DNA of 64,000 nt, taken from the NCBI GenBank assembly GCA_950295325.1, contig OX485808.1, positions 12,216,501 to 12,280,500 on the forward strand, in the 5' to 3' direction. The position numbers and the translations under genes were made by a program. The notes under the pieces are model-generated. The model was not told the DNA's origin and ran no database searches. It saw only the letters and a list, made by a program, of their open reading frames with translations. The stretch's first letter is position 1; each line of letters begins with the position of its first letter. Shown piece by piece: positions 18,716 through 59,255 of this stretch. This stretch comes from Polytrichum commune (lineage: Eukaryota > Streptophyta > Polytrichopsida > Polytrichales > Polytrichaceae).

Positions 18716-19179
18716 CAGAGCCCAACATTTTCCTTTTTAATTGCACCCATACCCAGACCATGCCCATCAACAGTGACCTATGCCCACCCATGCCCACCCA
18801 TAGCATGACATGTGCACACCCATGCCCACACATAGCATGACATGTGCCCACCCATGCCCACCCATGCTATTCAAATTGCGCCCATGTATTCAAAAATTGT
18901 GTAATGTGTCTTGTATGATTATGTAATTGTGCCCCACCCATGCCCACCCATTATAATATCAAACCCATGCCCACCCATGAACAATAATATCGCAGTCATG
19001 CCCACCCATGCCCACCCATGAACAATAATATCGCAACCATGCCCACCCATGCCCACCCATGAACAATAATATCGCAGTCATGCCCACCCATGCCCACCCA
19101 TGAACAATAATATTGCACCCATGCCCACCCAAAACCCATGGGCATGGGCATGGGTATGGGCACCCAATGTAGGGCTCTG
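18716..19179. mobile_element. hAT-type non-autonomous element carrying a minisatellite
   Basis: The ends are CAGAGCCCAACATT and AATGTAGGGCTCTG, a 14-bp inverted repeat with one mismatch. The 5'-CAGAGCCC start is typical of hAT termini. A perfect 8-bp direct repeat CTACACAT flanks it (18708-18715, 19180-19187). Nearly the whole interior is a GCCCACCCAT-type minisatellite. It encodes no transposase. The exact duplication within a known host element makes both borders certain to the base. Confidence 0.93.
18780..19135. repeat. GCCCACCCAT minisatellite with 41-bp higher-order unit
   Basis: The basic unit is GCCCACCCAT. From 18979 a 41-bp unit (GAACAATAATATCGCA plus a linker plus two GCCCACCCAT units) repeats with starts at 18979, 19020, 19061 and 19102. 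The long minus-strand frame (18996-19217) only reflects the repeat. Confidence 0.92.
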
Positions 19180-22739: not shown

Positions 22740-24250
22740 TAGGACCCACAAAATTTGACTTGGCCCAGGAGAACACATCCGGGTATAGCCGGGTATGATT
22801 ACTTTTCCCATCTCTGGGGGATGTGCAGGTGGGGCCCGGTTCAGGTGGGTCCCACATTGACCAGCGCTATGGGAGGGGAGGGGCCCACCGATGAGGAAAG
22901 GGCCAATAAAAAAGCTCCTAGCTGGCCGCCACAGTAGTAGGCCGGCAAGCACGCGGGAGTCTCCGCCAGAGCTCCCCCACAACTTCACCACGGACATCCG
23001 TGCCCGCGTCCGCGCCAACGCAACCGACAGGTAGCCACGTCAGCGCTGACCTGGTCTTCGTCTCTCCCACGGCCATAGACGCCCTAGTCGAGCCCCCCTC
23101 CATAGCCTGCCGTGGGCTGCGAGGCCGGGCGCCAGTAGGCCCCCCTGGGCTCGTTCGACCTCCCCTGATTAATTACAGGCAGATCGTTGCATTAGAAAAT
23201 AGCAGCTGGTAGCAATTGGATGTTAGCTGAAGTCTCAAAACTTTAATTTGTTTTGCAATTTTCCTGATTGTCGGCGGCAATAGGCCCTCGCCGCCGCCCG
23301 CGCTCCCCCCCACCCAAGTCTGCATTGCTTTCTTTGCCACTTGGGACTCTATTGGGAGCTCATTCAACCTCACCGTACTTACATACAGGCCGTATTTTTT
23401 GAGCAATGAACTGGCCATCAAATTGTGTGTGACTTAGTTGCGGGGTACATCTATCGGGAGCTTGAATTTTGGTTGTAGTTTCTGTGATTTTCAGCGGCTA
23501 TAGGTTCCCTGTAGCTAGCTTGCTTGCTTTGTCGGCTACTTCACACCTTGACAGCCAGAGTGCAGTAGGAGCTGCTACCTCAACCTCGCCTGACATACAG
23601 GGGGATCCTGAGCAAGGAGCTTGGTCATCAATTGCAGTTGTATTCACATCACTCATCCTCAGTATTGTTGCAGTCTTTGTACATTTCAGCGGCTATAGGT
23701 CCCTGGAGCTGTCGCTGCATGCCACTGGAGACTTAGCCAGCAGCCCATTGGAAATTGAGATAGAGCTCACTCCAGTCAATTTACATACAGGATCGGAGCT
23801 TGTCATCACTTCTGAATGCATACAGATAGGTAGATAGATAGATTGATAGATAGATAGATAGAAATCAGGGTGCAAGGATTTTGTGATTGCAGCGCCTATA
23901 AGGTTTGAGCGCCTTAACATAGCCTGTCTTCAACAGATCCAGGTGGAGTGGCAGTATCATGTGTATTCATTGAGATTTGAAGGTTACATACAGGCAGGGC
24001 AGGGGGGTGTCATCAAGTGGAGGTGGGGGTACTATTATGTCTGTTGGATGTCTTGTCATTGCTCTCGCATGCGTGTGACATGCCATCGACCTTCGAAGCA
24101 GGTGGCACATGTGAGCGGATCCGGCCGCCGGCTTTTATTTGAATGGGCGGGCAATCCTGCAGCAGGAACAACCTGGTGTAGAAATTGAATTTGGGGAAGC
24201 CAGGAGGTTTTAGTCACAGCAGTAGGTCACCATGACAGCATACAGCGTGC
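22740..24250. repeat. GC-rich upstream region with a degenerate ~200-bp tandem repeat
   Basis: This is the GC-richest part of the window and lies just upstream of the MCTP gene. From about 23260 to 24060 a unit recurs with starts near 23263, 23489, 23682 and 23882. It is marked by (T)TTCAGCGGCTATAGG near the start, then ACATACAGG and GAGC...ATCA in the second half, with a partial earlier unit near 23160. One 122-aa frame (23469-23837) spans two units and so contains an internal ~64-residue repeat, with no match to a family I know. It may be a promoter-proximal repeat or a decayed transposon; I make no gene call. A (TAGA)n run is at 23826-23860. Confidence 0.5.
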
Positions 24251-24500: not shown

Positions 24501-27500
24501 ATGGCGGGAGCTCGGAAGCTTGTGGTGGAGGTGGTGGCTGCGAAAGGTCTCATGCCAAAAGATGGGCAAGGCTCCACAAATGCTTATTGCGTGGTGGGTT
24601 GCACTTCATTTCTCTTCGTTAAATTTCTCGGTTCCGAAGCTCAGGTTTGCGTGGCATGCAATATTATTGCAGGAAGTCTAGTCGGTTATGGAGGGTTTTT
24701 TGTTGGGTTGACATATCCTCGGTGGAGTAGGCTCACGAAATGGTCATGTGAAACGAGGACTAGGTCCGATGTCAAGCTTCAGAGTGATTATTGAAGATTT
24801 CTAGTGGACACATACATTTGATACTATGTTTGATGTTAGTATTTGTTGCAGCTGAGTTTTGCCTGACAGGCAATATTATTGCAAGAAGTTTAGCCGGCTA
24901 TGGAGTTTTTGATTTTGAAATTTTTGTTTAGTTCACATTTCCACGTTGGCGACGACTCACGAATGGGTCATGTGAACCAGGACTAGGTCCAATGTCAAGC
25001 TTCAGAGTGTGCTTGATAAATGAGGATTTTCTATATGACATGGATGTTTGATGCTATGTTTGATGTGTATTTGGTTGTTCTGTTACAGCTGGATTATGCT
25101 GGACAGCAGAAGAGGACGAAGGTGATATCGAAGGATCTGGATCCAACATGGAACGACAAGGTATTAATCATTTCAAGAGTTTTGGATGTGTTGAATTAGC
25201 CCACGTGGGGATGGAAACTTGATGCATACGTTAATATCATGTCCATTTGGTTGTTGTTGAAAGTCTCGAGTATGGACACGACTTGGTCTCTCTTGAGCTT
25301 TTTGGCAAAGCTTCCAGAGCTCAACTAACCAGTCCTCCTCCATCCTCAAGTTTTGTTTTCAGTTGATGCGAACATGGAAATAGTGACATGGACATCATAT
25401 GTTTAGGTCATGTCCATGTGTCGGCTTTGCAATCTCGTTGAACCCTTTATAAAGCCAAGAGACTTTTGACGTTGTCAAAGTTTAGGTTCATTACATTTCT
25501 TAGTTGACCTGGGTCACCAAACTCTCTGATGAGCACAAGGCTTTATCACTAAGACCTGTATATATTCCTCTACAGAAGTATATTTAGTGTTGAGTTTAAA
25601 GCCTGCGAATTTTAGGAGTTAACGTGAATTTCAAACCATGATAAGCAATACATGAAAAACCTAGAGCTGAGCAGCAGCTGATTATGAGTTTTGAGTCCCC
25701 GCTAGATTTCTGTGATATAAAGAGGTAGTAGAGACTCTTGATCTGATAATTTTCTATCTTGACATGGGTCGTGTTTGGAAAACACTTAAAATCCCTGTTG
25801 AGTAGGCATAATTGATGTGGTATATTACTCTACAGAAAGTAGTAGCAGCGTCGAATTATAAAACTGAAAATTATTGGACTTTATGTGAAGTTCAAACTAT
25901 ATTAAGCAATACCCATGAGTGATAGATCAGCCTACAGGTGGTGATGATTAGCCATGAGTTTCGAGTCACCACTAAAACTTCTGTGATAAAAAAAGGGGTA
26001 TGAAGTTGTAGGACGCCTCTTGATGTGATAGTTTTTCTACTTGACCTGGGTGATGTTTCGAAAACACCAAACTCTCTGATTAGTAGCCATTATTTATACG
26101 GTATCTTACTCTACCTAAAGTAAGAGTGTCCACTTTCAAGGCTGGAAAAAGGGGTTCGTGTAAATAGGGGTTCTGAAAATAGTTTACTATGATAACTCTT
26201 AAGCAACACCTAAATATCATAGAGCTGATAGACATGAGTTTCGACTACACTGATTATCCCAATTAGTGCGTGTTACAAATTGGAGTTATGCAGTGCTATA
26301 ACTATTTAATGATAATGTAATATTTGCCAAGCGAAGTCATTTATGTTCATATTGAACTTTTGTTAGTAAAAATTGAACTCCTGAGTAACATGTAATGGCA
26401 CAGCGTGACTCCAAATAGTGACATGCACTCTTTGGGATAATCAGTGTAGTCACCACTAGATTTTCTGTGATAAAAAGCCCTAGGGAGAATGTAGGATGCC
26501 TCTTGATCTGATAATTTCTCTTTTTGACCTGTTTTCTTGTTTTGACAACATTCTGATGAGTAGGCATCATTAATATGTATATTACTTTACGGAAAAGTAA
26601 GAGTGTTGAGTTTTGAGTCTGGAAATCATAGGGTTCATGAGAATTTACTAGTAGGCAACATATGGATATCCTAGAGCAGACAGACATGTGTTTCGAAATG
26701 CCACTAAATTTTTCTGTGATATAAAGGGGTTTGAAGATAATATTCTACTCTTGATCTGATAATTTTCTACTTGACCTGGGTGATGTTTTGAAGACACCAA
26801 AATCTCTGATGAGTAGGCATTATTAAGACGGTATATTACTCTACAGAGAGTATCAGTGTCAAGTTTTGAGTCTGGACTCGTAGGGGTTCATGTGAATTTA
26901 CTATGATGAGCAACACACGAATTCTCTAGAGCTGATAGACATGAGTTTCGAGTTGTCTCTAAATTTATCTGATACAAAGTGGTATGAAGAATGTAGGTTG
27001 CCTCTTGATGATCGAAGTTAATGGTGTGTGTGTGTGTGAGATTTGAAGTTAATGTAAGCATTATTAATACGTTGTGTTACTCTACAGAAAGTAAGAGTGT
27101 CAAGTTTAAGGCCGGAAACAGGTATTGATGTGAATATACTAGGATAAGCAACACATGACTATCCTAGAACTATTTCTTAGACGTGAGTTTCAAGTCACCT
27201 CTAAACTTTCTGTGATAAGAAGGGTATGAAGATGTAGGAACACTCTTGGTGATTGAATTTAATGGGACTGTGTTTGTGTGAATCGTGCAGTTTGAGTTCG
27301 CAATCTCTGACTTGACTTCTTCCATGACTGGAGACTTGGAAATCAATGTCCTAAATGAGAGAAACAGTGGCACAGGCAGACCGAGCAGTTTTTTGGGAAG
27401 GGTTATCATCCCAGTTAACACTGTGCCCCCCAAAGCTGAGGCTGTCAGATGGTATCCATTGCAGAAGCGTGGTCTCTTCTCTCACATTAAGGGTGACCTA

Positions 27501-30500: not shown

Positions 30501-33500
30501 TAAATACACGATTAGTACGAGATAGTTAGCAAATCTATATTGAGGCCATAGCTGCATTCCTCATAATTTTTGGAGCTCATATGAATATCTTATTCATTAT
30601 TGAAATGGAGAATCTTGTGCTCATTCAATGGTCATATAGGTCCCTCCAATTATGTTGACTATTGAACCTCGAATGGTTATCATATTTTGAGCACGCAATC
30701 CATCTCTTTCAAACATATGTCTTTTTGGTATCTGTTCCTGGACCCAGACCAAACCACATGTCACTCAAATATAGGTATTTTAATAAGAGAAGTGACCATA
30801 TAAAGGATGTCTACCTTATGTTCCTAACCCCCACTATTAAAATTCACCTTTTCCTTTCTCACACTTTCACTCAGTTATCCACTGCCATTGCAATTTGATT
30901 TTCTTTCATAGAGGAACCTATGTACACTGTAAGTCCTGAGCTCTGCCAGAATATATGTAAGTAAAGGTTAATCAAGAACTCCTTCCACATTTGTCACTGT
31001 ACATACTTCCTGGCTTGTTGAGTGTCAAACCTGTTCTCGGAGGTTCAGTGTCTGATTATGTAGTATTAAAATTTTGTTGAATATGAGTTGTACGTGGTGG
31101 GGCTCCACTTAGCTTCTGCTTTGAATAAATGATTAGGCGCTCTGTAGGCACCAAGCTTTGATAAAGTCATTTTATAATAGAGAAAGAAAATGAAAACATT
31201 TCCTGTTTTAAATTTTGAAAAAGAATTCAAATTTAACGAGTCATCTTTGTTTGTGCTGTTTATATACAGCTCTCCACTGAATAAGTTATGATGTCTGTAC
31301 AGGATGAGCTTCTGGGTCACATAAGGATTCCCTTACTCTCTATAGAGCGTCGCATTGATGGCCGCAATGTAGCCTCAAGGTAAATTTCTTGTCCTTGTAA
31401 TTGTCCTGCTATGATATACTTCACCTCAAAAGTTTACATCGATTTTGAGTTTTGGAACTCGAACTTCACAGATATGTAATTTTCTAGATTAGTGAATGCT
31501 CTTTATAAGAGTACGTGACGTACGTGCACTCTAAAATGATGTACGTGCATTCTAAAATGATATATGTGAGTGCAGGTCAACTGGTTGCTTGATGTCTTAC
31601 AGATTTTGTCAGAGGGTTTAGGGGTTAGGGTTTAGGGGTGGTTGTCGGTTATCAAATTGGTTATTATACGGTTATGGAGTAGAGATATCCTTGGGTCTTA
31701 GATAATTGAGCGATGTAGATATCAGCCATGTAGAAAATTTCCAAGAAATCATTAAAATTGATATCTTTTTAGTTGTAGAGAAGTGTCAACTGTAGAGACC
31801 CCTAATTTTAAGAGTCAAAATAATGTTCAACATGATATCATTGATTACATATTTTATTAAGATATTGTTCTGGGTGCATGATTTTTTATTCAATGACTCA
31901 AAATCGAATGTAGCAACCCCGTAGCAACAAAAGAAATAAAGACTTGAGATTAGTATTCGAGTTAAGCAACCACCAACTGATGGTATTATAATATGGACAT
32001 AACCGTGACTATGTAAAAAAAATTTCTTTGTGTATTAAGACTCATAATGTGTGTTCATTGACTTGTCCACATTTTTTCACAACTTATAACCGTGATTAGA
32101 ATAGAAAATTGACCCCTTGATAATCCAAAACGTTGTGAAGTTCATTCAGGAGATCATTTATTCTTATGGATTTTGCAATGTTTCAGGTGGTATGTATTGG
32201 AGAGAGAGGGTGGAAGGGGCGGACCCTTTGTTGGAAAACTTCACCTTCGACTCTGCTTTGATGGTGGGTACCATGTCATGGATGAATCATCGAACTACAT
32301 TAGTGACACACGGCCAACAGCAAGGCAGCTTTGGAGGCCATCCTTGGGTATTCTAGAGCTGGGTATTCATGGGGCCAATAATTTACTTCCAATGAAGACA
32401 ACAAAAGATAATCGTGGGAGCACCGATGCATATTGTGTTGCAAAATATGGGCCCAAATGGATTCGCACAAGAACAATATTTGAGAGTTTCAATCCTCGTT
32501 GGAACGAGCAGTATACGTGGGAGGTCTACGACCCGTGTACGGTCATTACTGTGGGCGTATTTGACAATCGGTATGTAAATTGTTTTTTTGGTGTTTCCAT
32601 TTTAAATTGTCTTTAGATCACAAGATCCGAAATTCTATATTGGGTGCTAGCGCCGCTTTATGCTACGGCCGAGGGCCGTGATCATGAAATTGTGAGGGCC
32701 CTTGGTACCCATCCCACAGGCCGTATCATGGAAAATTGAAATTGAATATTCTGTAGTCATGGGCCGTCAAATGTACTGGAAAGACATACGTGATGGGGCT
32801 CTCCACCGAGTGATATTTCATTACTATCCTATTCATGTGGGCCCTTCCAAACAATTACATACTAAGGTATTAATTCAATTAAAAGGTTGTGAGATATTGA
32901 AGTGACATAATCTCCTGGGTTTGTGTTGCTTGGAGGTGGGCTTGACTCAAAATCTGGTAGACCCTAAAACGTTATCCATTGATGCCATGTAGGACTCCAT
33001 GTAAGTTTATCATCCATTCAAACCTTCTTGGCCCCTTAGGCGCTCAAGCTCTGGTGGAAAGCAAAGACGGAGGGCCTCGCATTTTCCATCAATGAGAAAA
33101 GTTCGTTTCCAATGGTCACGGGACCTCAAATTCTAGTGCCTCTTAATATTAGAGGAGGCAAATCATACAACCCCTAAATTCATCTGAAATATATCTAAAT
33201 TATGTATTCCAGTACTTACCACTGACATATGTCTCTTTGGGTTTGCAGACACACGTACCCAATGGGAATGGAGAAAGCGGTAGTGAAGGATCTGCCTATA
33301 GGTAAAGTACGAATTCGACTTTCGACATTGGAAAGCGATCGTGTGTACACAAATGCGTACCCCTTGCTGGTTGTCACTCCCCAGGGAGTAAAAAAAATGG
33401 GTGAGCTGGAGGTGGCTGTTCGATTTTCGTGCGCGTCGACCATAAATTTGATGCATGCGTACCTTCAGCCACAATATCCACGAATGCATTATTTCTTTCC

Positions 33501-35860
33501 TCTTGACATGAAACAGCAGGAAAGTTTACGTGTGGCGGCCATGAACATTGTGGCATTGCGAATGATGAGAGCTGACCCTCCCTTAAGACAGGAAGTTGTC
33601 CAATTCATGCTTGATACGGAGGCGGAGCGATGGAGCATGCGTCGAAGCAAAGCCAACTACTATAGGATCATGGTATGTTCCTTAACATAATATCCTAAGG
33701 TAGATGAGTCTTAAATGGTTACTTTTTCCAACCAGCCCAATTCTCCTAGGATATGAAACACGTGATTAGTACAAGATGTTTGGCAAATCCAAATCTTGCT
33801 CGTAGCCATCTGCCTCATAAATTTTGGAGCTCATATGAAAATCTTAATCATTGTCAAAGATTCTCATGCTCATGAAGTGGTCATATAGGTCCCCCAATCA
33901 TGTTGACAGTTGAGCCTAGAATGGCTATCAAATTTTGAGCACGCAATCTAATCTCTTTCAAACACAAGTCTTTTTGGTATTCGTTTTAAAATCCACACCT
34001 GAACACACACACCACTCAAGTACAGGTGTCTGATCAAGAGACGCAACTTTGAAAGATATATCAAACTAAAGTGTGTGGACCTACAGTGGCCATCTCCAAC
34101 TCCCAAATAAATAATGGCCGTCGGATGAAATTGGGAACCGTTTTATCACAAAGGTTGTCACTTAAAGTCTCAGAATCAGAATTGATATACAATTTTAAAC
34201 AATTTTATTATCTTTTTTTTTAACCTTCACAAGGACCCTCCCAATTGTGATGTTAACTATTAGACGCAGAATGGTGTCTATTTGTGGAGCACATAGTTCA
34301 ATCTCATCATGACACGGGTCCTTTTAGTCTCTGTTCTTTACTACATGCCTTGCCAAATACTACTCAAATGTAGGTGTCCAATTGAGAAGAGTAACCACAT
34401 AAGGCCCACATACCTTAAAGTGCAATCTTATTGAAATTTCTAATCACAAAATCTGAGCTTGTGTTTCCTGTTGTCCCTGGATTGATAACTTTCTTGAGGT
34501 TTGTAACAGCAATATTGAGCTGTTGTCATCACCATGACCATTGCCAATTCTTTTAATTTAATTTCTGAATTTTGATGTGCAGGGTGTACTGAGCGGGGTT
34601 TCAGCTGTAATGAACTGGTTTCAAGATATCTGCAGTTGGAAGAGCCCCGTCACCACTGTACTTGTTCACATGCTTTACTTAATTCTTGTGTGGTACCCGG
34701 AGCTTCTACTCCCAACAGTCTTTCTGTACATGTTTTTGATTGGGTCCTGGAACTACCGGTTTCGGCCGAGGACGCCGCCGTTCATGGATGCGAAGCTTTC
34801 ACAAGGAGAATATATTGGTGACTTGGATGAGCTGGAGGAAGAGTTTAATGTTATTCCTGCGAATAGAGCTCAGGAGGTATGAAATGCCCTTCTCCTTTTA
34901 ACTCCTTTAAATTTCAGCACACTTTCTTGCATAAGTTCTGTATTTACGGGGGTGTTTGTCAGATACACCGGCATCATCGTGGCAATCTCTAAATGTTGGA
35001 CCGGTAAATACATGTATGCATGATATCAATACACAATATTATTGATGGTATCAAGGAACCTACCCAACCCAGTATCAAAATAGTAATGCAAATCAATTAT
35101 TGATACTTGGTGGGTTCACAAGATGACAGTATCTTTGTATGCTCGAGTTGTTGTTTAGGTCAATACCATCCTAATACCATATTGATACTAGAGTAATTTT
35201 ACCTAGGTATGAAGGTTCTTGCATGGTATATAGACCCGAATGGTGCAAAAAACAAAAACACTCTCAAATTAAAACTGAAATTCAATCATTTTAGTGGTTT
35301 AGAAAGAATTGATACCAGTCCAACACTGGTCCATATGCCTCAATGTCCAGGTCTTAATTATTGACATGTGGATTTTAAGGTGCTGATGATTATTGTACTG
35401 GCTTCTGTGTGCAGGTCTTGAAGTATAGATACGAAAGACTTCGAGGAGTGGCTGGACGAATTCAACAAGCACTTGGTGATCTTGCCGGGGTTGGAGAAAA
35501 AGTTCAATCTCTTCTAAGTTGGAGAGACCCAAGGTACAGAAGACTAGACACGTGGAAGTTTTATTCAACAACCTGCAATTATCATCCTTGCCTGCTTGAG
35601 TTGAGTTTCAAGAGTAGTTTATTTGGAACTGACTATGTTGCATTTTTTGGGTTTCTGGTTGTGTGGTGCATAGGGCGTCGGCGGTATTTATAATGTTCTG
35701 TTTGATATGTGCCGTCGTGTTGTACGTGACACCGTTCCAAGTAGTGGCCGTGCTTCTTGGTGTCTATGCCCTTCGCCACCCCCGCTTCCGTGACCCTCTG
35801 CCTCCAGTGCCTGTGAATTTATTCAAGAGGCTACCGTCACAGTCCGACCGGATATTATAA
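24501..35860 (+). CDS. Multiple C2 domain and transmembrane protein (MCTP / QUIRKY-FTIP family)
   Basis: I assembled 14 exons by GT-AG sites and family continuity: 24501-24593, 25089-25160, 27291-27502, 28288-28591, 28787-28927, 29078-29213, 29737-29915, 30219-30380, 31303-31379, 32187-32570, 33249-33672, 34583-34876, 35415-35533, 35674-35860. They keep frame and give 927 aa ending at TAA. Domains: C2A about 5-120 (LVVEVVAAKGLMPKDGQG), C2B about 198-320 (DLVEQMTYLFVRV; DLNPVWNQ; SKDDFLGG), C2C about 360-480, C2D about 512-640 (DNRGSTDAYCVAKYG; FNPRWNEQYTW), then the PRT_C region with two hydrophobic segments near 740-780 and 860-890, and the typical C-terminal end after RHPRFR. MCTPs anchor in the ER by the C-terminus and bind plasma-membrane lipids with C2 domains, acting at plasmodesmata and in FT or receptor trafficking. 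C2C lacks the usual first-loop Asp (LVPSPEP), so it may not bind calcium. The C2A-C2B linker is short (about 70 aa). The start is the first ATG giving the C2A strand. Which subclade it belongs to is not settled. Confidence 0.95.
25161..27290 (+). repeat. MCTP intron 2: tandem array of ~250-bp units
   Basis: This 2.1-kb intron is mostly a head-to-tail array from about 25495 to the acceptor site. The marker TTCTGTGATA recurs near 25710, 25980, 26463, 26714, 26966 (variant) and 27209. Spacing is about 243-276 bp once a 205-bp MITE in the middle is subtracted. Other shared parts are CTTGACCTGGGTGATGTTT, ATTACTCTACAGAAAGTA and CATGAGTTTCGAGTCAC. The last unit runs into the exon 3 acceptor. Confidence 0.85.
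26245..26449. mobile_element. MITE, family D, in MCTP intron 2 array
   Basis: The ends CTACACTGATTATCCCA and TGGGATAATCAGTGTAG are a perfect 17-bp inverted repeat. Neighbouring array units supply the empty site: GAGTTTCGAGTCACCACTA there reads GAGTTTCGA[element]TCACCACTA here. Relatives are at 29272-29628 and 38416-38873. It has no coding capacity. Confidence 0.85.
27571..27812 (+). repeat. MCTP intron 3: ~78-bp tandem repeat, three units
   Basis: AACCAAATA...TTCTTAAGTAG...CTATT...GGTTCCA...GGTAATCTGGAT recurs with unit starts at 27571, 27648 and 27730 and a terminal partial at 27807 (spacing 77, 82 and 77 bp). Confidence 0.8.
29272..29628. mobile_element. MITE, family D, in MCTP intron 6
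   Basis: It starts CTACACTGATTATCCCAATT(AGTGCG), and the right end CACTAATTGGGATAACCAG is its imperfect reverse complement. It fills most of intron 6 and is larger and more diverged than 26245-26449. No clear target duplication. Confidence 0.7.
30435..30815 (+). repeat. R1-containing repeat in MCTP intron 8
   Basis: About 380 bp aligns with 33690-34090 in intron 11 of the same gene, over a longer stretch than other R1 copies share. Common blocks include GTCTTAAATGGTTAC, TTCTCCTAGGATAT, TTTTGGAGCTCATATGAA and TTTTGAGCACGCAATC. Confidence 0.7.
32650..33145. mobile_element. Diverged TIR element in MCTP intron 10
   Basis: It aligns loosely with 19627-20116. Shared parts are CC(G/A)TGA(T/C)CATGAA(A/G)TTGTGAG, GATGCCATGTAGGA(A/C)TCCATGTA, CATCAATGAGA/CACCAATGAGA and AATGGTCACGGG. 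The terminal repeats have decayed, so the borders are approximate. The in-phase frame at 32702-32905 is not an exon. Confidence 0.6.
33690..34090 (+). repeat. R1-containing repeat in MCTP intron 11
   Basis: It is the partner of 30435-30815, starting about 20 bp after exon 11 as the other starts about 55 bp after exon 8. A second, plain R1 copy follows at about 34225-34435 in the same intron. Confidence 0.7.
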
Positions 35861-36060: not shown

Positions 36061-38115
36061 AATCAAAAGATGACCGTGGAATTTGTTGCTTGAACTAGGA
36101 GTAGGTGGCTTTGTGTAGTTAAATCGGTTACCCTTGGCCCGTCCATTACTTTGTACAGACCTTGGATCCATTGGATGCAATCACATCCAACTGCAGGGTA
36201 ATATAAATTGAAAATACTTCATTGGCACCAACATGTACCAAACATCAAGTCCAGGTAGAGTTGTTCCAGAAACACTGTTGCCTTTGCCTAACATATTCAT
36301 CATAATGGTCTGTGATGTGTCAGAATTGACGAAGTTTGAGGCCTTTTAGATTTGTCAAGCCATACCTGTCTGCAAAGTGGGGCTTTCTCCCGAGTACTTG
36401 GAAGTTGGATAGGAAAACTTATGGACATACCTTATTGTTGCAGTCACCTGCATGATTCAGAAACAAAATTTCTGACAGGAAGGAATGGTAGGCACAGTGT
36501 CCTCCAGGTTTCTGTTGTACAACTACGCCTCATTATTTCCTAACGCCATAAGTGCAGAGCTTGGACATTTTTGAAACGCTTTGAGGATATTTTATGTATC
36601 TACCAAATAGCTAGTTTGGTAGGGATATGTCCCAATCATGATGCAATTCTGTTACAGAAGAGTGTTAATACGTCCCTGAAAAAACAGCTATATTCTGTTT
36701 TTAAATGCATTGCAAACTAAGGGTTATGCAATGGAATTGGAACAAACTATGCAATGGGGTTCAATGACTTTGCAACGGAATTTGAACAATCTATGATATG
36801 AACCTTCAATGCGATTTCAATGGAGTTTGAATGGTATATCGAATGATTTTACAACGGATTTTGGAATATCCCTTACAACAGTTCTGTCAGAAACCTAGAT
36901 TGAAATTCACCTACCTTACCCTCATTCTATCCAACTATTGAATATTATCTCAGACACAACGTATTGATAAAACTGTAAGCATTCATACACAATCTTTGGG
37001 CGCTTTTCCTCTCATGTTAAAATCATAAAAATGAGCAGTGTGATTAGGACCACTTGCTGCTGATCTAGTAAGTAAGTGTGTTGATTGCATGGTGGAAATA
37101 TACAACACTGACACAATCAAGCACACAGGAGAAGCATGGTTGGAGTATAGAAACCAGTGTTTTTATTATTTATCATTTTATTTATGAAAAAATTACAGGG
37201 TAATGAGTAACTGCATGTTGGATGCACAATGCAAATTGAAGTACGATTTGTTTTGTTTTGTTTTGTTTTGTTTTGGTAGTATCCGAATTTAAAGTTGGCT
37301 ATAGGAAGTTGAATATGATCCACTAAGCCACGTTGCCCCAATGTTGACTTTCTTGACCCGTTTTCTTTTTTTCAAGTTGGTTCTAAAGGAAAAGAATCAC
37401 CTTATTCTTTTTGGTGCAATTTGGTGTCATGAATCCAAAACAAAAACAAAAACAAAACATTGATAGAAACAAATTTGAGACCTCTCCATGATGAGGGCAC
37501 CATGCATGCCTATAGGATAGACCATGACAATTGAAGCGTTAGGTTGCAAGTATATGCGGCTTTCTAAGCTTGGCAACTTACTCTTTCACTTACTAGGGTC
37601 TTATTGGTCGAGAAAAAATTTATGGGTCCAAGGAGTTTAGATTAGATTTGGGTCCAAGGCATGGAGAAACGTAGAGGTGCCAAGGTACTAAGCGGGGCTT
37701 TCATGGTCACCTTTTTAAACCAGGCCTCTTTATTTGAGTGGTGTATGATTGGGTGTGGACTTAAGAATGGAAACCAAAAAGATAAGTGTTTATAAGAGAT
37801 TGGACTACGTGTTTAAAGTAAGTTAGTGAGTCTAGGCATAATAATGAACATGAATGAGGGGGGGACCTACATGACCATTTACTATCCATGAGACTCTTCA
37901 TTTTGATAATGATTAAAACATTCAATAAGCTTCAAAGATTATGAAGAAATTGGTTACAAACACCATTTGAAATTATAGAGTCCACACTATTTTATCTTGT
38001 AAAAAATGCAATGGGTGTTTGATATGCCAGTCAATTGACACAAGGTGTTTTCATTTATATATATTATGTCATCCAAGTTATGTTGTGTCAATTTGTTATG
38101 ACAATTGTCCACATG

Positions 38116-38150
<35 letters not shown>

Positions 38151-38415
38151 ACTAGTGTCTCATCATAAGGAATTTCTTTTGGGTGTCCATTATTAACTAG
38201 AAAAGTGGTGATATAACACTCCATTTTAGATGTTCAACCATAATTATTGGATAGTTATCCCCATAGACTATCGCTAGTAAGAAACATGGAACCTAACAAC
38301 ACGGCTTCAAAGAACACAACATGACCACATAGTCCAAAACAACAAAGGAATTACATTGTTTTAAATCCTAACTATGTCAATTTTACAATCGTGTTGTTTG
38401 GATCCATGTTTTGTA
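36061..38415. other. gene-free interval
   Basis: It holds a (TTTTG)n run at 37246-37276, an R1 copy in reverse at about 37690-37920 and a 20-plus T tract at 38119-38142. The frame at 36352-36543 has no recognised domain. Confidence 0.5.
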
Positions 38416-38873
38416 CTACATTGATTATCCCAATTGATGTGTGTTATTATTTGAAGTTACATAGTGCAACAACATCTTACTCATGAGTTCATTTTTATTA
38501 ATGAAAGTTCAATAGGTTGTTTGGACATTATAGAACACATTAATTGACTTTTCTTGGTGAGATATTACATTCAACATGGTATTCATGCAAATGTCACATG
38601 ACACGTAAAAATGCCATATATGTCATTTTCTCAAATGCAAGGGAGGTTGGCTAGAATTGGTCTATGAAGGTAGCTTTTACCAACCACAACTTTTTCCTAA
38701 GTTCAAGTGCATTCCACAAGACTGGAACTAAGTCAGCCTTGAGAAAACAACGTCATATGTGAATGTGATGTTTTCGCATATACAATGTTTCTCATTACAT
38801 GATTGTTATAGCATTGTGTAACTCTGAATAGTAACACGGGAGTAGCACACGCTAATTGAGATAATCAACGTAG
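38416..38873. mobile_element. MITE, family D, long copy
   Basis: The left CTACATTGATTATCCCAATT and the right AATTGAGATAATCAACGTAG pair with a few mismatches, and subterminal parts also pair (AGTTACATAGTGCAA with TTGTGTAACTCT). TGTA lies immediately outside both ends, a possible 4-bp target duplication. The interior is longer than in 26245-26449 and has no coding frame. Confidence 0.65.
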
Positions 38874-39289
38874 TGTATGTTAAGACAATGCATAGTGATG
38901 TCTTAATCTATGTGTGTAAGGCAATACAAGGACATAATATGTCATGTCATTTCATGTCAAACATGAATTAACACATTGTAAGTTAATAAGTCAATCAGTT
39001 TCAATACTCATTTTGACACAAACGACGTTTGTGTCACATTGAAATGTAAACCATCCACACGTTTGCTACTTGCAAGACTACAAGTTACCATTAAAAGTGC
39101 AAACTTGAAACTCCAAAGTGCAATTACCATTAAAAGTGCAAATTGTGATCCAAAAGCGACGCAAAAGGACTTTGCAAATAGGTTCTTATAATCAAGAGCT
39201 GTTTGTAGCAAGTGATGAGCTATCTCATGCTACACTTGGTTCTTTCATCACGGGAATTCCATTCCTTGGTCGATATATCAAAATTCAAT
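38874..39289. other. gene-free interval
   Basis: No gene recognised. A short direct repeat of ATTACCATTAAAAGTGCAAA lies at about 39085-39145. Confidence 0.5.
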
Positions 39290-39297
39290 AAGTAGGC

Positions 39298-39524
39298 CAG
39301 TGTAGAGCGAGTCTTTTGGGCATAATTGGTCAAAAGCCTAGCGTTTCAAAGTTCAATTGGTTACATGTTGTGATCTTTCAAAAAAAAATTTATTGACTTG
39401 AGGTATATTCCATAGATACTTCTAAAAGGATGGATAATTTTCCTAAAGTCTTGAACTTCAACTGGTTATTTCTCAAACTCAACCAATTCACCTATAACTA
39501 GCAGTCAATTCTCCCCGTGCATTG
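39298..39524 (-). mobile_element. hAT-type MITE, family A
   Basis: The ends are CAGTGTAGAGCGAGT and TCTCCCCGTGCATTG, and the body matches the other reverse-oriented copies. A perfect 8-bp target duplication AAGTAGGC lies at 39290-39297 and 39525-39532. The 227-bp length matches the family standard. Confidence 0.88.
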
Positions 39525-39532
39525 AAGTAGGC

Positions 39533-41274
39533 ATCAATTATGTTCGATGCTTGGCCAAACTTACTATCAAAGTGTCATCATAAGTTTTTTAAAAGGTTTT
39601 AGAATAGCATGACACTATTCGGTCATCCAACAAATCGTCAAGCTACTCAAATCATGGGCATACACAAGACACTGCACACTCACAGACGCACGGAATAATG
39701 AAGCCCATCCCCCCATGGTTCCTACAATGCTCATGCCAAACAATAAGTTAAACATGCTCCTGTCTCAAAAGGCTATGTCTAGACATAGTATATATCCAAG
39801 AACAATATGGCCCGTCCCCCCAGTCCCTAACCTTATCATCCAAATAATAGAATTCACATTCACCCACGACAAATTCACATACTAAGCCATCAAAACTAAA
39901 CAAGGCAAATATAAACCCCTTATAGTTGCAATGAAGGCCCAAGGCAGGGTAGTCAACCCATCTCATAATCATAAGAATCGGAGTCCGTGGCTCCATCCAC
40001 ATAAATAGCATACCGCTCCTAGAAACTTACACATATGTCCCAAATTCATCCAAAAACAATGAAAAACATCCACCACATTGCCATAAAATATCTCACATAC
40101 TTAGTCTTTAACAAAAGGAAATTGGATAACAAACAAAAATCTATTCATCCACCCACATGAGGGCCACTTGTTGAAACAATCTAACTACACATAATGAGCC
40201 CACCTACCAAAAGGATAGGTAGTAAACCTTGTGTTGAAATGAGGGGACGCTAGTTCAAAGTAGGACCAACATGCTCAAATTCATGTGTGTGATGACATCA
40301 CTGATGTTTATTTATTTATTGAATTATGTGCCCATTATATGTCAATTTCAACACTCAACAAAACTTAGAAGTTTGCTCCTCATATAGATATTTCATTTTC
40401 AATACGCTCATTGACATGTGCAATCAAGTTGCCCCATGCTAATTTATCAACATTCCAGCCTATTTTGAATACTTATTATTGCAACAACACAAAAGACAAT
40501 GATGTTTTAGAATTATGTCGTTGCTATATGGATGAATAAACAAAGTTAAGAGTTTGTGTGATGTGAATTTGACCCAAGGTAGGTTCATGGGTAAAAAGGC
40601 CACCTATTCAATTGAGCAACCTAATTGCACATATCAGTGTAAATATATTTACTCACAAGTTGTGCCAATTGATCAATGTGGAAATGTAACTATTTTACAA
40701 TGTGGAGTATATATAGTTAGGGGTCCCAATGCAAGATTGAGCTATTTCTGCTATTGGGGGATTTTCAAATGGGAGCATTCATAGCAGAGAAATAGCAATC
40801 TCATGTTGAATGACATGTATTCAAGTCAAGTCAAGTTGAAAACAAGGAGGAAACGCCACTTGCAAGTGGACTCGAGCCAACATGCAAATTGTTGTTTGAA
40901 GGGAAAATGACTCCCAAGTGGGTTGGTGAGTGTAACACTTAGATGCTTGAGAAATGGCACACAAACAGGAGGACAACCCTTCTTGAAGATGATGTCTCTT
41001 TTGCATTAGTGCAATCACAAGTTTGTAATCCAACCATGGGACCACGAAATACTTTATTTTTGTTGTGACTTGAATTTCTTTATTTTTCCCTTTTTTACGA
41101 ACATGTTTTTAGCATGGAAGAGGGAGATTAGTGCTTTTGAACAAGTTTTAATAAGGAGCAAAACATTGGAAGTAAGTTTATGTATCAAAAACATCATTGC
41201 AAGCACCCTCTATTTGAAGGAAGGAATTCGTAATGAGGAGGGAAGTGTGTGAATACACTCATGGTTGCTATGTT

Positions 41275-41319
<45 letters not shown>

Positions 41320-41762
41320 AAGTTGGTCTTTCTCAGAGGTGGTAAGCTTTTTGATTTTTCAAGTCTTGAGTTTGTGACTCCTCACTCCTTGGCCTAGCCT
41401 TGGCGTTTATGAGGTCTCATGGTTGTGCATGTTACTTTCGGCGCCATTCATTTGCACTAAAAGGGAAAAGAGAAATTGCCCCCAAAATATTTAGAGTAAA
41501 AAAAATCAAATGTATTATATATCTTAGTTAGTGTGGGCCACACTACCTAGTCATCATTGGCGCATGACAATAAATAGTAGAGTAATTATTGTGGGCAACA
41601 TGATTTATCACAATGTACATAGATTAATGTGATTGAGCAAAATTGCAGGTCAAATAAACTTACAACAAGTGAAGCATAAATTGTGACAAATGACACAAAC
41701 AACATGACTAGGTGACAATACACCAAGACAATTCAACAAATGTAACAAGACAACACAACAAT
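39533..41762. other. gene-free interval
   Basis: No gene is recognised. A (TTG)n run of about 15 units is at 41275-41319. Frames at 39748-40011, 40554-40784 and 40821-41045 show no known domain. Confidence 0.5.
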
Positions 41763-42890
41763 TTTAAAGGGCTTGAATATTAATGCAGTCCAAAATAAAT
41801 AAGTGCAAAACTAATTCTAATGCTATAATAAGCACATATATACATGTACTGTACTTGGTCGGCTATTTGGAAACTCGGATCTTGGATCAAATGAAGTTCA
41901 AGGATCCATGCATACACAACCTCATCCAAGTCAATGAACAAGATGCTACACCAAGAAGCTTCAACAATTTGTAATAAGACAACTGGCATCAACTTTTGAG
42001 AGTTTGAATATCAATAAATATTCAACCCTAATAATAATAAACATGTGACACATTAATTATAATTATAGATTATAATAAATCATATCTATATACAATATAG
42101 GCAGTGCACTTGGTCGTCGTTTGGAAACTCAGATGTTGGGTCAAATGAAGTTCAAGGATCCACACATACACAACCTCATCCAAGTCAATGAACAAGACAC
42201 TACACCAAGAAGCTTTAACAATTTGTAATAAGACAACTGGCATCAATTTTAAAGAGTTTGAATGTCAATAAATATTCAACCCTAATAATAATAAACATGT
42301 GACACATCAATTCTAATTATAGACTATAATAAATCATATCTTTATACAATATAGGTAGTGCACTTGGTCGTCATTTGGAAACTCAAATGTTGGGTCAAAT
42401 GAAGTTCAAGGATCCACACATACACAACCTCATCCAAGTCAATGAACAAGACACTACACCAAGAAGCTTCAACAATTTGTAATAAGACAACTAGCATCAA
42501 TTTTAAAGAGTTTGAATTTGAATAAATATTCAACCCTAATAATAATAAACATGTGACACATTAATTCTAACTCTAGGTTAAAATATTATATATATATAAT
42601 GCACTTGGAAACTCAGATTGTGGATCAAATGAAGTTCAAGGATCCACAAATGCACAACCTCACCAAAGTGGAATTTTTTTGGGTTCAATTTGCACTAAAT
42701 TGAGAAGCTTCAGTAATTTGTAACAAGACAACACATCAAGTTTATGAGTTTAAACACTAATGTGTGGCCCACTATAAATATCTGGCACATTAAATTGAAT
42801 GCTACACTAAACCATATGCCTATATATAGATTACGCGGTCGTCAACTTAGGGACTCGGATCTTGGGTCAAACGAAGTTCGAGGATCCACA
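41763..42890 (+). repeat. Five-unit tandem array (~240-255 bp) ending in the VPS60 promoter
   Basis: Units share ACTTGGTCGTC...TTGGAAACTC, TTGGGTCAAATGAAGTTCAA, GGATCCACACATACACAACC, AGAAGCTTCAACAATTTGTA and AATATTCAACCCTAATAATA. The ACTTGG landmark starts near 41853, 42108, 42362, 42603 and about 42844, giving spacings of about 255, 254, 241 and 241. The fifth unit keeps only about 50 bp after the landmark before it passes into the unique VPS60 upstream sequence. It keeps CpG where the others have TpG or CpA. Confidence 0.88.
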
Positions 42891-43323
42891 CGAACGAACA
42901 GAACGTGGGCCAACGTTTCGTTCGGAAACGCTGACCGACGTCGTCGTAGTTCTCTTCCCCTTCCCCAAAATGAGGAAACCGTCGTCTTCGCCCCTCCTCC
43001 TTTCCTCGAACTGAGAAAATCTTCGCCGCTGTTTTCTTCTTCCTTTCCTAGAATCGAGGAGACTTTCGTCGCCCATCGTCGTCGTCGTCGTCCCCGCGAT
43101 CGTCCCTTCGGCGAAGGCTACCACCCATGCCGTCCTTTCCACTTCAGCGTAGGGAAACAAACAATCCACAAGCAACGAAAGCGAAGAGCAAAACACGAAG
43201 AAGAGCGAGGTAATCTTAGAGAGAGCTTGTATCGGGTAGCTGATTGCTGTAGGGTTTGGGTTTAGGTTGTTGTTGTTGTTGTTGTTGTTGTTGGAGCGAT
43301 TTTTCTCTCGTGATTGGGGCACA
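42891..43323 (+). promoter_or_regulatory. VPS60 proximal promoter and 5' leader
   Basis: This 430-bp block is CpG-rich compared with its surroundings (many TCGTCG and CGTCG motifs) and has no repeat character except (TTG)n at 43265-43294 just before the start codon. Its position and composition fit the promoter and leader of a constitutively expressed gene. The overlapping 173-aa and 190-aa open frames on both strands are composition artefacts. Confidence 0.6.
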
Positions 43324-45840
43324 ATGAAGCGCGTATTCGGAGTGAAGAAGGACAAAACGCCAGGGCCTACGGTGGAGGAGGCGACACAAAGGGTAAGCTT
43401 TTTCCATTGTTTTTGTTTTGATTGCTTGGTACATTCCAAACATCAACTCCTTTGGTTCTACGTTAAGTTCGGATATGGATTTTGTGTGAAGCGATGGAAT
43501 CGGTTTTGGTTACGGATTCAGTGGTTGGTTGGATGAGGATGGATGTAAAGAGATGACTGTATGTATGTGTGTGCAGATAAATAAGAGGGGTGACACAGTT
43601 GATGAGAAAATAAAGAAGCTCGATGGCGAGCTTTTCAGGTATCGGGAACAGATCAAGAAGACAAGGCCCGGTCCCGCGCAGGAAGCTATCAAAGCACGTG
43701 CGATGCGGATTTTGAAGCAGAAGAAGATGTAAGCATACCTTTCCCCCTCTCATATTTCAATTGTTATTGCATCTCTTGCTTTCTGATGCCTCTTCTATTC
43801 TGAAAGCCTTTCTCTCGGCTCTAAAGGAATGTAGACAGAATTCCATGGAAGGAAGTTTTGAAGACATATTCAGAGGATGAGGATGTTGAGAATCAGAAAC
43901 TTGAGAACATGGACTTAGTAGTTGCACATGGTGGACATCCATATACATCACTTTAGGAATTGCTTTTGATTGATTCGCCAGAAGGTAGGGATGGAAAGTT
44001 TGGGGCAGCATCATGTGAAATTCACAAAACAGGAAATTAGGGTTTCCTCCCTGGGGTGTTGTTATTTTTGAACTGTAGGATGTAGTGGTTTGAGAACTGA
44101 AGTGGGCTGCTCTTACGTGGAGCAGGTATGAAGGTCAAAGGGATCAGCTGTACAGTCAAACTTTCAATTTGGAGCAAGTTGCATTTGCAACAGAGGGGCT
44201 CAAGGATGCTCAACAAACGGTGCGGATTTTCTTCTTTTGTGTTCTAAGATTTTGTTATTTTTGTAGTTAGCTGTGCATGTGTCAAATGATTAGGTGACCT
44301 CAATGAGATTCTTCTTCCTCACAAGGTTTGTAGAGTACATGTAATCGTTGGTCTTTATATCAGGTTGTTTAGGGTTCATTGTTTGAAAGATCAATATGTT
44401 GAGTATATGGTTTGTTGGCAATGGTGACATTCATATGTAATCTAAGTGTTTCTTCTGTGCAGATGTCAGCCATGAAAGCAGCTAACAAGGATTTGAAGGG
44501 AACCATGAAGACCCTCAAGATTGATGATATTGATGTATGGTGCTTCCTCTTTTTTATTCTCTTCCTCCATTTTTTTCAGCTGCTTCAAGATCCTACTCAA
44601 AAACTGTGATGAAGATGCTTGACAACAGTTGATTTTCTGCAAGGTGTCCTCTATTGCAGGTAGAAAAGAATCTTTTCTGGCCTCTTCACTATAAATAAGT
44701 CTATACATATCGAAAGCTCACCTGTGCAATTCCTACAGAAAATGCAAGACGAAATGATGGACTTAGTGGACTACAGCTCTGAAATTCAAGAGACTTTGGG
44801 TCGCAGCTACAGTGTACCCGATGACCTTGATGAAGAGGAACTCATGGGTGGTAAGCTTTTTGGTTTCCTATGTTGTTGTTGTTGTTTATAACCTAAGTTC
44901 TGGATTGCTTGAACTAATCAATCAATCACTTTCTTCCCTGGAGTAGTGGAGGTTTAGGGCATGGAACATAAAATGCAGATGGCCTCTTACAGTGCTGAGC
45001 TTGTTTTTTACTTCTGGTTGTTGTTGTGGGCTTGGAACAGAGTTAGATGCTTTAGAAGCTGATATGGGAACGGAAACCGAGTCTGAGGGTATGCCATCCT
45101 ACTTGATGCCTGATAAAGAACCCGAGATGGATTCGGATTTGAACCTACCTGCAGCACCCTCCGGTCATGCGGCATCTTCTCAGCCAAATCCACAGGTTTG
45201 TATTTGGAATGACTTAAGACCTTTATGCAGACATTAGAGTTATTCTTCAACTCAATGGCGCTTTTCAGCGGGAGTTCGTCCCTATGGTTTTCCATTGGTT
45301 GATTTGCATACAATATCAAGGAAATTCCCTCTTTTGGTGCATGCTCAGAGGTAGTATTTGAATCTTAATGAAGAGTAGCCTATTTCGGTTCATTGAGAGC
45401 CAAACTCATCCTAGCACCTCTTTGCATGCCAAAATGAGTTGGATCCTCAATGAACCGATATTGAATGTTCCTCATTCAAACCTCCACACTTCCTCTGAGC
45501 ATGCACCACAAACTTACTGAACATGGAAGGTGTTGTATGCAAAACAACCAACTCCTGACCCAAAGTTTTGTTCAATTAATTTTAGTGTTTCATTGTTCGT
45601 TCCAATTCACTAACTGCAACTTGTTTTATGAGCTAAAAACCTTTTTCACCATTTCAATGATACCACTAGATATGATGAATGACAGTAAGATGACAACACG
45701 AACAGCAGGAAGGGGTTAGAGGAGAGGTGCCACAAGGCTGACTTGAAGTGATTTTGTCTGACAGCGTGCGTGATCACCATGAACAGGCTGCAGATGAGTG
45801 GGGCTTTCCATCCGTTCCAAGAACATCGATACGAACATAA
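43324..45840 (+). CDS. VPS60: ESCRT-III subunit VPS60 / CHMP5-like
   Basis: Seven exons with GT-AG junctions: 43324-43392, 43577-43728, 44126-44219, 44463-44534, 44739-44850, 45041-45195, 45787-45840. They keep frame and give 235 aa, the family's usual length. The N-terminus is basic (MKRVFGVKK). The conserved core follows: INKRGDTVDEKIKKLD, the KKTRPGPAQEAIKARAM segment, QTFNLEQVAFATEGLKDAQ and DLDEEELMGELDALEADM. The C-terminal exon encodes GFPSVPRTSIRT, like the end of plant VPS60.1. VPS60/CHMP5 proteins bind LIP5 and help regulate the AAA-ATPase VPS4/SKD1 during multivesicular body sorting and membrane scission. The last exon is only 54 bp and lies 591 bp from exon 6; it is supported by the acceptor CAG, the phase and the family match. 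The frame at 45465-45719 is intronic. The gene looks intact. Confidence 0.95.
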
Positions 45841-51711: not shown

Positions 51712-52000
51712 TTACTCTTTATTTCTCAATTCATAAGACTTGAATTTTTTTATCTCTTTAATAGATGTAGAAACTTTAGACAAATTTTTAATTGGTAATT
51801 TAAATGCATGATCATTCGCATAGTGAGTTTTAATCTTCTTTATCAAAGGTGACTTGAAACATGAGATTGGATTTTCCGTAGGTTGTCTATACAATGTATC
51901 AACTACAACAATTTCTTTATCATTAATATATTCTATATCAAGGTCAAATTCTTGAAGTAACTCCATCCATCTACATTGCTTTCTATGGAGATTTTGTTAA
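51712..52000 (-). pseudogene. Ty3/gypsy RNase H C-terminal / tether fragment
   Basis: The frame at 51712-51966 has LLQEFDLDIEYINDKEIVVV followed by DTLYRQP, matching the junction after RNase H in gypsy polyproteins (usually ...ADALSR). It lies in the expected order between reverse transcriptase and integrase. RNase H upstream (52000-52380) is too broken to read. Confidence 0.75.
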
Positions 52001-52383
52001 ATGGGCAAATATCTTAGAGATTTATAGTTAGTCTGAATCTTAAAGTTTGTCCCCAACAGGTAATGTCTCCACACCTTTAAAGCGTAAACTATTGCAAATG
52101 TTTATTTTTCATAGATTGGGTAATTTCATTTCGCAAAATTTAACTTACAATATTTGTAAGCAAACACCCATCTTTCTTCCATCAAAACAACATCAATAAC
52201 TAGGTTACTAGCATCAATATATAAAACACATGCTTGTATATGATCATGATTATCAAGACATGTGTTGAAGTTAAAGCGTTCTTTAAGTTCAAGAAACTTG
52301 AATCACAATAAAAAAATCCAACTAACAAAATCGGAATTTTTTCATATGTGCAGTCAAAGGAGCTACAATCTTGAAGAATCCTT

Positions 52384-53059
52384 TCACAACCTTCGATAAT
52401 AGCTAGTAAGATTTAAGAAGCTTTGCACTTCGGTCTTAATCCTACATATGGCCCACTCATGAATTATTTTAGCTTTTGTAGGGCCAACCAATAAGCATTT
52501 ATTTGTAACCATATGCCCAAAACACTCCACACTTGATGAGAAAAATTCATACTTGCTTTGCTTGGCATAGAGTTTATTGGACCTCAAGATATTAAACACT
52601 TGTCTAAGATGCTCTTTGTGTTCTTCTACTATTTTGGAGTATATAAAAATGTCATCCATAAATACTAAAACGTACTTACCCAATGTTTATGAAACAAGGT
52701 ATTCATCAAGGTCATAAATGTTACTGCAGCATTTGTGAGAAAAAAATCATTACAACATATTCATAAATTTTTAGCCATGACCAAAATGTTGTCTTTTTAA
52801 TATTTGATTCTTTCACTTGCATTTGGCGATAATCATTCTTTAGTTCAATTTTAGAAAACACCTTTGCTCCATAAAGATAATCAAACAGATCATCTGTCTG
52901 TGGTAAATGATATTTATTTTTTATGGTCAATCTATTTAGTTTGCAATACTCCACACACAATCTCAAAGACTTGTCCTTCTTTTTCATGTAGAGGATTGGC
53001 GCACCCCACATATTAGACTTACTAGGTTGAAAGTAGCCTTTGTTTAACAAATCTGTCAA
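52384..53059 (-). pseudogene. Ty3/gypsy reverse transcriptase remnant
   Basis: Two minus-strand frames, 53059-52721 and 52683-52384, cover the polymerase. The first has LNKGYFQPSKSNMWGAPILY, then LRLCVEYCKLN and FSKIELKNDYRQ. The second has the catalytic box as FMDD in VLVFMDDIFIYSK, and HLRQVFNILRSNKLYAKQSK. The two frames are separated by a frameshift and stop, so it is inactive. Confidence 0.88.
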
Positions 53060-53254
53060 TTAATTTTTTATTTTTTAAATTTTGAGCTAAAAAAAAAAAT
53101 GGAGCTCTTTAGACTGGGGCTACATTATCAACCACGTGTATAGCATGATCTATTTTCCTTACCTATAGTAATTCAATTATTTCATCAAGGAATACATCAT
53201 TGATTTCGTTATCATCCAAGGGACCTTCTATTTCTTGTTGACTGTGAATTCCAT

Positions 53255-53452
53255 TTATAATTCTATCACATACACGAAAGATATTTCTTCACATTTTTTG
53301 ATAGAACTTTTCATTTGTGAGTGAGAAAACATAAGAACCTTTAGTAATGATCGTTTACCTCTAATGAAAAATGATATTCCATCTGAAAGCTTTTCATATA
53401 CTGCATCTTCTTCACATGCAATATATGTGTCCACTTGACATAGCCATGTCAT
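53255..53452 (-). pseudogene. Retroelement polyprotein segment between protease and RT
   Basis: This minus-strand frame falls where the protease-RT linker of a gypsy polyprotein should be. It has no motif I can name; the assignment rests on position. Confidence 0.4.
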
Positions 53453-53470
53453 TCCTGAGATGGTATCGTA

Positions 53471-53701
53471 TCACACTCCACTCCAAACTTTGAAGTCGGC
53501 TACAATGTTGACTCCTTCAATGTCCACCAACACCTTCAACATGCAGTGGTTATTAACACTAGATTCGTTGTTTAGTAGTTTAACATAACACGCTTTTATT
53601 GGAACTAGGGGAAGTCCCAATTTCCTCACAAAATCAGTCGACATCATATTATGCGTGCATCCCGAATCCATCATAATAGTGCATGGTTGGGAAGAGTTCA
53701 A
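53471..53701 (-). pseudogene. Ty3/gypsy aspartic protease fragment
   Basis: The minus-strand frame contains the active-site motif as MMDSGCTHNMMS, followed by FVRKLGL, as in retropepsin-like domains of plant gypsy elements. It is upstream of the reverse transcriptase in the correct order. Confidence 0.78.
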
Positions 53702-53839
53702 GTTTCCTCTAATTTAAACTACTGTTCGTTCTTGCTCTAGTTCCATGTTCATCACTGCAGCAAAAACTTGAACCGACCCACCTCCATCATGCTTTTGGGT
53801 CTCTGCTAAATATTTTACTTCTAAGGCTTTTGTTTTTCA

Positions 53840-58859: not shown

Positions 58860-59255
58860 ATGGCGGAGATCACAAAGCTTATGGTCGTGACGGCCTTGGT
58901 CGTGTTCTTTGCGCTACTAGCCCCAGCTCCAACGCACGCTTACGATGGTACATTTGTTTTCTACGCGTGCAACTCGCAAAAAACAAGCCAAGGAAGTGCG
59001 TTATACAACGCGACTGTAGCGACCATTGCCAACCTTGAGCAGCAAACTCCGTATTATAGCTACGACTACAAGAACTCGGAGTCGAGCAGTGGAGTGAGTT
59101 CATACGGTCGTGGCACGTGTAAGTATGCTTTGTCCGACTGCAATGCGTGCTTGACGAGTGTTGGCAAGTTGATCTTGCCAACATGTGACAATGCTGTGGG
59201 TGCACGCTACCAAGTCACGGACTGCTTCATCATGTACGAGAGCACCCCCTTCTAA
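58860..59255 (+). CDS. Secreted ginkbilobin-2-like (Gnk2/DUF26) protein
   Basis: One exon, 131 aa. Residues 1-27 form a signal peptide (hydrophobic core, cut after APTHA), leaving about 104 aa, the size of a single Gnk2 domain. Six cysteines at 37, 87, 94, 97, 109 and 122 would form the three disulfides of the fold. The spacing in the signature is C-X6-C-X2-C, two residues shorter than the usual C-X8-C-X2-C. The residues equivalent to the mannose-binding triad of Ginkgo Gnk2 are present: Asn38 (ACN), Arg116 (GAR) and Glu127 (MYE). N50-A-T52 is a possible N-glycosylation site. There is no kinase or transmembrane region, so it is the secreted single-domain type, as in seed antifungal proteins, not a cysteine-rich receptor kinase. 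Mannose binding and antifungal action are inferred from the family. Confidence 0.92.
   Translation: MAEITKLMVVTALVVFFALLAPAPTHAYDGTFVFYACNSQKTSQGSALYNATVATIANLEQQTPYYSYDYKNSESSSGVSSYGRGTCKYALSDCNACLTSVGKLILPTCDNAVGARYQVTDCFIMYESTPF

Follow-up and report, generated by a model that had tools for sequence, protein, structure and literature searches.

Why should the last copy of a tandem array, the copy that runs into the promoter of a probable VPS60 gene, carry CpG dinucleotides at positions where preceding copies read TG or CA? A preliminary description of this locus had proposed that the array grew out of, or into, an unmethylated promoter and was later methylated, that CpG decayed in all units except the promoter-side one, and that the locus may mark a heterochromatin border. 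We compared the units with one another and with the window in which they lie (the window being the whole 64-kb stretch of DNA that was analysed), and arrived at a plainer reading. With a probability of about three in four, a housekeeping promoter that is rich in CpG, and presumably free of methylation, simply ends here on its upstream side, as such promoters ordinarily do, and this edge lies by chance in the last copy of the array.

Self-BLAST and a repeat search of the window delimit an array of ~4.6 copies of a ~254-bp unit (Table 1). The tandem array described before VPS60 is thus present, with five core copies starting at 41864, 42118, 42372, 42602 and 42844 (spacings of 254, 254, 230 and 242 bp), but its span had to be corrected from 41763-43000, since homology in the self-comparison begins at 41714 and ends at about 42891-42899. 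The TRF row at 41853-42585, with a period of 254, corresponds to the most regular part of the array. Unit borders were set in phase with the right end of the array, and the left end of U1, at 41690, is a generous cut in that BLAST homology starts only at 41714.

Table 1. Coordinates of the array, its units and the adjoining promoter and gene (positions within the window).
Feature	Position	Strand	Basis
Whole array	41714..42899	+	self-BLAST, repeat search, TRF period 254
U1, left edge copy	41690..41921	+	MAFFT alignment, pairwise identities
U2	41922..42175	+	MAFFT alignment
U3	42176..42429	+	MAFFT alignment
U4, with deletions including the GGTCG segment	42430..42659	+	MAFFT alignment
U5, promoter-side edge copy	42660..42899	+	MAFFT alignment, CpG positions, segment statistics
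CpG-rich putative promoter / 5' leader domain, with the final ~65 bp of U5 in it	42834..43324	+	edge scan, segment statistics, CpG positions
TGGGCC, putative promoter element	42906..42911	+	motif scan of 41501-43400
Snf7-family gene, probably VPS60/CHMP5	43325..45230	+	three-frame translation; exons by eye; last exon further downstream

Unequal crossing over leaves homogeneous inner copies flanked by diverged edge copies, and minisatellite and satellite tandem arrays evolve in this way. In the MAFFT alignment U2-U4 share identities of 0.896-0.945 with one another, U1 shares 0.714-0.727 with U2-U4, and U5 shares 0.655-0.684 with each other unit. Because the inner copies are closer to each other than the edge copies are, the array appears to have grown by unequal crossing over, with U2-U4 as its young inner copies and U1 and U5 as its old, diverged edges. 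Although it resembles minisatellite and satellite arrays in this respect, it differs from them in its low number of copies, ~4.6 in all, with no further copy detected in the 64-kb window by BLAST at an E value of 0.01. Two other candidate identities were rejected for the array: ARAGORN identified 0 tRNA genes across the window, and a search for known RNAs with Rfam gave 0 matches at E values up to 1 in 41500-43400.

To the right of the array lies a gene whose spliced reading, assembled by eye without the last exon, matched SNF7 among PDB sequences with an E value of 1.1e-8 and the VPS60 fragment 2luh with an E value of 1.2e-4. Exon 2 alone matched Pfam Snf7 at an E value of 8.7e-4, under the curated cut-off. 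On the basis of these matches the gene is probably VPS60, and we would expect it to be expressed. The stretch preceding it has a CpG o/e of 1.63 in 42834-42899 and 1.32 in 42900-43324, and a GC content of 0.545 and 0.513, respectively, compared with 0.315 in the array and 0.36 in the unique flank. This joint rise of CpG o/e and GC over the promoter and 5' leader relative to the flanks is CpG-island-like, and the CpG-rich stretch is likely to be the promoter. Within it lies TGGGCC, which we take to be a candidate site-II-like promoter element; two further instances within 41501-43400 lie at 41534 and, in reverse orientation, at 42766. Our search of the literature found nothing on VPS60 that brings together a tandem repeat, the promoter and CpG.

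The upstream limit of the CpG-rich domain is abrupt. No CpG starts in 42370-42833, which leaves a gap of 465 bp between the CpG at 42369 and its successor at 42834; to the right of 42834 there are 23, 37 and 43 CpG within 200, 300 and 400 bp, and to the left there are 0 at each distance. At all three widths 42834 is the largest CpG rise of all window positions scanned, and GC jumps there from 0.315 to 0.545. A sharp boundary had been placed near 42840-42890 in the preliminary description; we recovered one, at 42834, inside U5. The body of U5 contains no CpG and its last 66 bp contain 8, indicating that the edge does not follow a repeat boundary. Positions at which a distal unit reads TG or CA are CG in U5 at 0 of 22-27 sites left of the edge and at 4-6 of 11-14 sites right of it, a contrast whose p values (0.0004-0.014) are flattering in that the edge was picked after inspection. 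A sharp CpG edge within the last repeat copy is consistent with a border between methylated and unmethylated DNA at the promoter.

Comparable edges, though lesser ones, occur elsewhere in the window. In the 400-bp scan, positions 22927 (11 to 33 CpG) and 58744 (11 to 32) rank second and third, the latter 116 bp upstream of a ginkbilobin-like start codon at 58860 and the former ~1.6 kb upstream of a probable MCTP start, read by eye at about 24501. Each of the three recognised genes therefore has a CpG rise upstream of it, but because the edge at 22927 lies so far from the predicted start codon, its link to the MCTP promoter is one that we assume. The third-ranked edge of the 200-bp scan, at 35676 (2 to 15), lies away from any recognised gene start, and lower-ranked edges of the window scan fall within the C2 gene.

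If repeats had drawn methylation to themselves, the array would be expected to stand below its flank in CpG. It has a CpG o/e of 0.18 (5 CpG in 1120 bp), compared with 0.24 in the unique DNA just upstream (13 in 1713 bp, 40001-41713) and 0.35 in 38001-41713. The array is thus largely as CpG-poor as its surroundings, and its deficit below the flank, an indirect sign of repeat-targeted methylation, is small (0.18 vs 0.24). As the unique DNA upstream is about equally CpG-poor, the special role that had been proposed for the array is not supported. Under the promoter-edge reading, the promoter would be unmethylated and the remaining DNA methylated; the last ~65 bp of U5 would form part of the promoter, which would give them their high GC and CpG, and the other copies would lie outside the promoter, about as low in CpG as the intergenic stretch that precedes them. 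What was observed, namely the anatomy of the array, the position and sharpness of the edge, and a scarcity of CpG much alike in the array and its unique flank, can be explained with no appeal to array-driven methylation, and none of the findings requires heterochromatin.

The case for decay of CpG in the distal units must then come from individual sites. Four had been quoted in the preliminary description, of which two read as quoted: all four other units have AAATGAAG and GTTCAAGG where U5 has AAACGAAG and GTTCGAGG. The other two are less uniform. CACACATA is found in two of the four units, U1 having CATGCATA and U4 having CACAAATG; TACACAAC is found in three of the four, U4 having TGCACAAC, and because aligning it with AACGAAC of U5 needs a gap, it does not represent a clean CpG transition. 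By position, the CG of U5 at 42872 and at 42879 is matched by TG or CA in 4/4 other units, and CGCGG at 42836 by TG in the 3/3 units that align there with MAFFT. These sites, together with p values below 0.05 in some tests (the looser all-site comparisons described below, the contrast across the edge and the dinucleotide test for U4), are what decay of methylated CpG has in its favour. That CpG is kept only beside the promoter was, however, an overstatement: GGTCG (42840) retains its CpG in U1, U2 and U3, the three other units in which this segment is present (U4 is without it), a retention that speaks against decay, and CTCGG (42856) retains its CpG in U1, with CA in U2-U4. In addition, three transitions within the core that set U5 apart from all four other units, at 42849, 42851 and 42852, are outside CpG.

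We compared decay-type changes at CpG with those at other sites using every aligned C or G of the U5 core (42834-42899) and one-sided p values, with a second cut at 42890 that drops the doubtful end. Up to 42899, C>T or G>A was found at 5/16, 6/16, 6/16 and 5/10 CpG bases in U1 to U4, respectively, and at 5/20, 4/20, 5/20 and 4/18 other C/G bases (p 0.48, 0.21, 0.33 and 0.14; up to 42890, p 0.69, 0.36, 0.49 and 0.24). Scoring whole dinucleotides gave p values of 0.29, 0.07, 0.12 and 0.026 up to 42899, where the simulated power of the test was 0.85-0.94 for a tenfold CpG rate and 0.50-0.66 for a fivefold rate, and of 0.60, 0.22, 0.32 and 0.12 up to 42890, where the test for U4 has no power. The units are non-independent, so that U1-U4 do not amount to four separate tests, and all p values are uncorrected. 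Looser comparisons, of CpG with all other sites in 42828-42899, favoured CpG both for sites at which U5 differs from every unit (p 0.024 with four units, 0.037 with U1-U3) and for transitions (p 0.044 and 0.004); in two shorter segments, with A/T likewise included, p was 0.04-0.25. When sites differing from every unit were matched to other C/G sites, p was 0.051-0.058, and 0.051-0.64 over all settings. Alignment of the five units, then, leans towards CpG in the looser tests and not clearly so in the C/G-matched ones; the data leave room for a moderate excess at CpG but do not demonstrate a strong one, and the clear CpG-specific footprint that had been claimed is not borne out by base-level comparison with other C/G sites (p 0.14-0.69).

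The distribution of the changed states bears on their timing. Because TG/CA states are common to U1-U4, they suggest few events, with change before amplification or homogenisation, rather than one decay per unit, which runs counter to the earlier picture of separate CpG decay following amplification. Taken with the unclear CpG excess over other C/G sites, the retained GGTCG and a unique flank about as CpG-poor as the array, this leads us to regard as improbable the full decay account, in which units derived from the promoter edge left the protected zone, were methylated as repeats and shed CpG through deamination, while U5 stayed protected at an array-driven silent-chromatin border.

The differences in the core are also lopsided in a way that extends beyond CpG. 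U5 has C/G where another unit has T/A in 9-11 cases, and the reverse in 1-2, compared with 13-17 to 10-14 in the body; 4-5 of the 9-11 core differences, about half, lie outside CpG. This imbalance fits loss outside a GC-rich promoter and gain inside it equally. On the gain reading, CG within U5 would have arisen from TG/CA either by GC-biased gene conversion or because binding sites were selected for; this reading would agree with the excess of CpG over expectation in the promoter (o/e 1.32-1.63, beside a GpC o/e of 0.72-0.2) and with the uniform TG/CA of the four other units at 42872 and 42879. Its difficulty is CTCGG, whose presence in both edge copies, U1 and U5, suggests that CpG is ancestral there and was lost at 42856 from U2-U4; this is the sole site that favours loss, and hence the one that decay can cite as an ancestral CpG. 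On balance we think it unlikely that the CpG of U5 was gained.

Among known systems, the promoter-edge reading places the locus with CpG islands and other CpG-rich 5' ends of genes, which it resembles in its high CpG o/e over the promoter and 5' leader, in the sharp drop outside and in the excess of TpG/CpA beyond the CpG-rich domain. It is unlike them in that the edge falls inside a tandem repeat copy. A review that deals largely with vertebrates states that CpG loss is slower where CpG is dense (PMC9624357). The promoter tandem repeats of Arabidopsis SDC and FWA are described as targets of RNA-directed DNA methylation (PMC2582956). Direct repeats in or upstream of the promoter are found both there and here, and no measurement on this array carries the likeness further: the SDC and FWA repeats carry methylation that silences the gene, whereas VPS60 would be expected to be expressed. 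A literature search on CpG or DNA methylation at fern gene promoters (Ceratopteris) found nothing. If the promoter-edge reading is true, the locus is a routine case and also a warning, in that repeat copies straddling a promoter edge will mimic a decay footprint. Since related copies flank a sharp CpG edge, the locus would nonetheless have some use as a natural site at which to test whether such a border is set by sequence or by position.

One part of the unit stands out for its constancy. A 43-bp core at 42846-42888 aligns with its copies in U1-U4 with no gaps in 5/5 units, and in comparisons with U1 its conservation exceeds that of the remaining sequence of the unit: identity of U1 to U2-U4 is 0.91-0.93 in the core and 0.65-0.67 in the body (p 0.0001-0.002). 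The contrast between core and body has a p value of 0.01 for U1 and U5, is weaker for U5 against U2-U4 (p 0.04-0.14), and within U2-U4 gives p values of 0.47-1.0. Because the U1 values might equally reflect a crossover in U1 close to the core, we treat constraint on the core only as a possibility. It is very improbable, in our estimation, that the ~43-bp core was copied out of the VPS60 promoter edge, was kept more constant than its surroundings and may block the spread of methylation into the promoter; were this so, the array would provide a natural five-copy comparison across a methylation border. A conserved hairpin in the core was rejected when the five cores were folded as DNA (z of -2.17 for U4, and -0.33 to 0.68 for the other four).

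Several other features of the window were recorded. The reading frame at 58860-59255 specifies a single-domain, probably secreted protein that matches Pfam Stress-antifung (E 3.2e-6) and ginkbilobin-2 (E 9e-24), with a CpG rise at its start; the ginkbilobin-2 match makes a land plant the most likely source of the window. A C2-domain gene, first readable by eye at about 24501, has a Pfam C2 domain in 32113-32613 and is presumably MCTP; a ~241-bp tandem duplication (1.9 copies, 76% matches) lies within this probable MCTP region at 26813-27281. On the minus strand, 51715-53713 contains pieces that by eye resemble a decayed retrotransposon, which we take to be a candidate of Ty3 type; the single piece scanned, 52724-53059, matched 0 Pfam families. 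Finally, 18774-19131 contains short tandem repeats, with units of 32 bp and 41 bp, that have ACCCATGCCC-like words in common.
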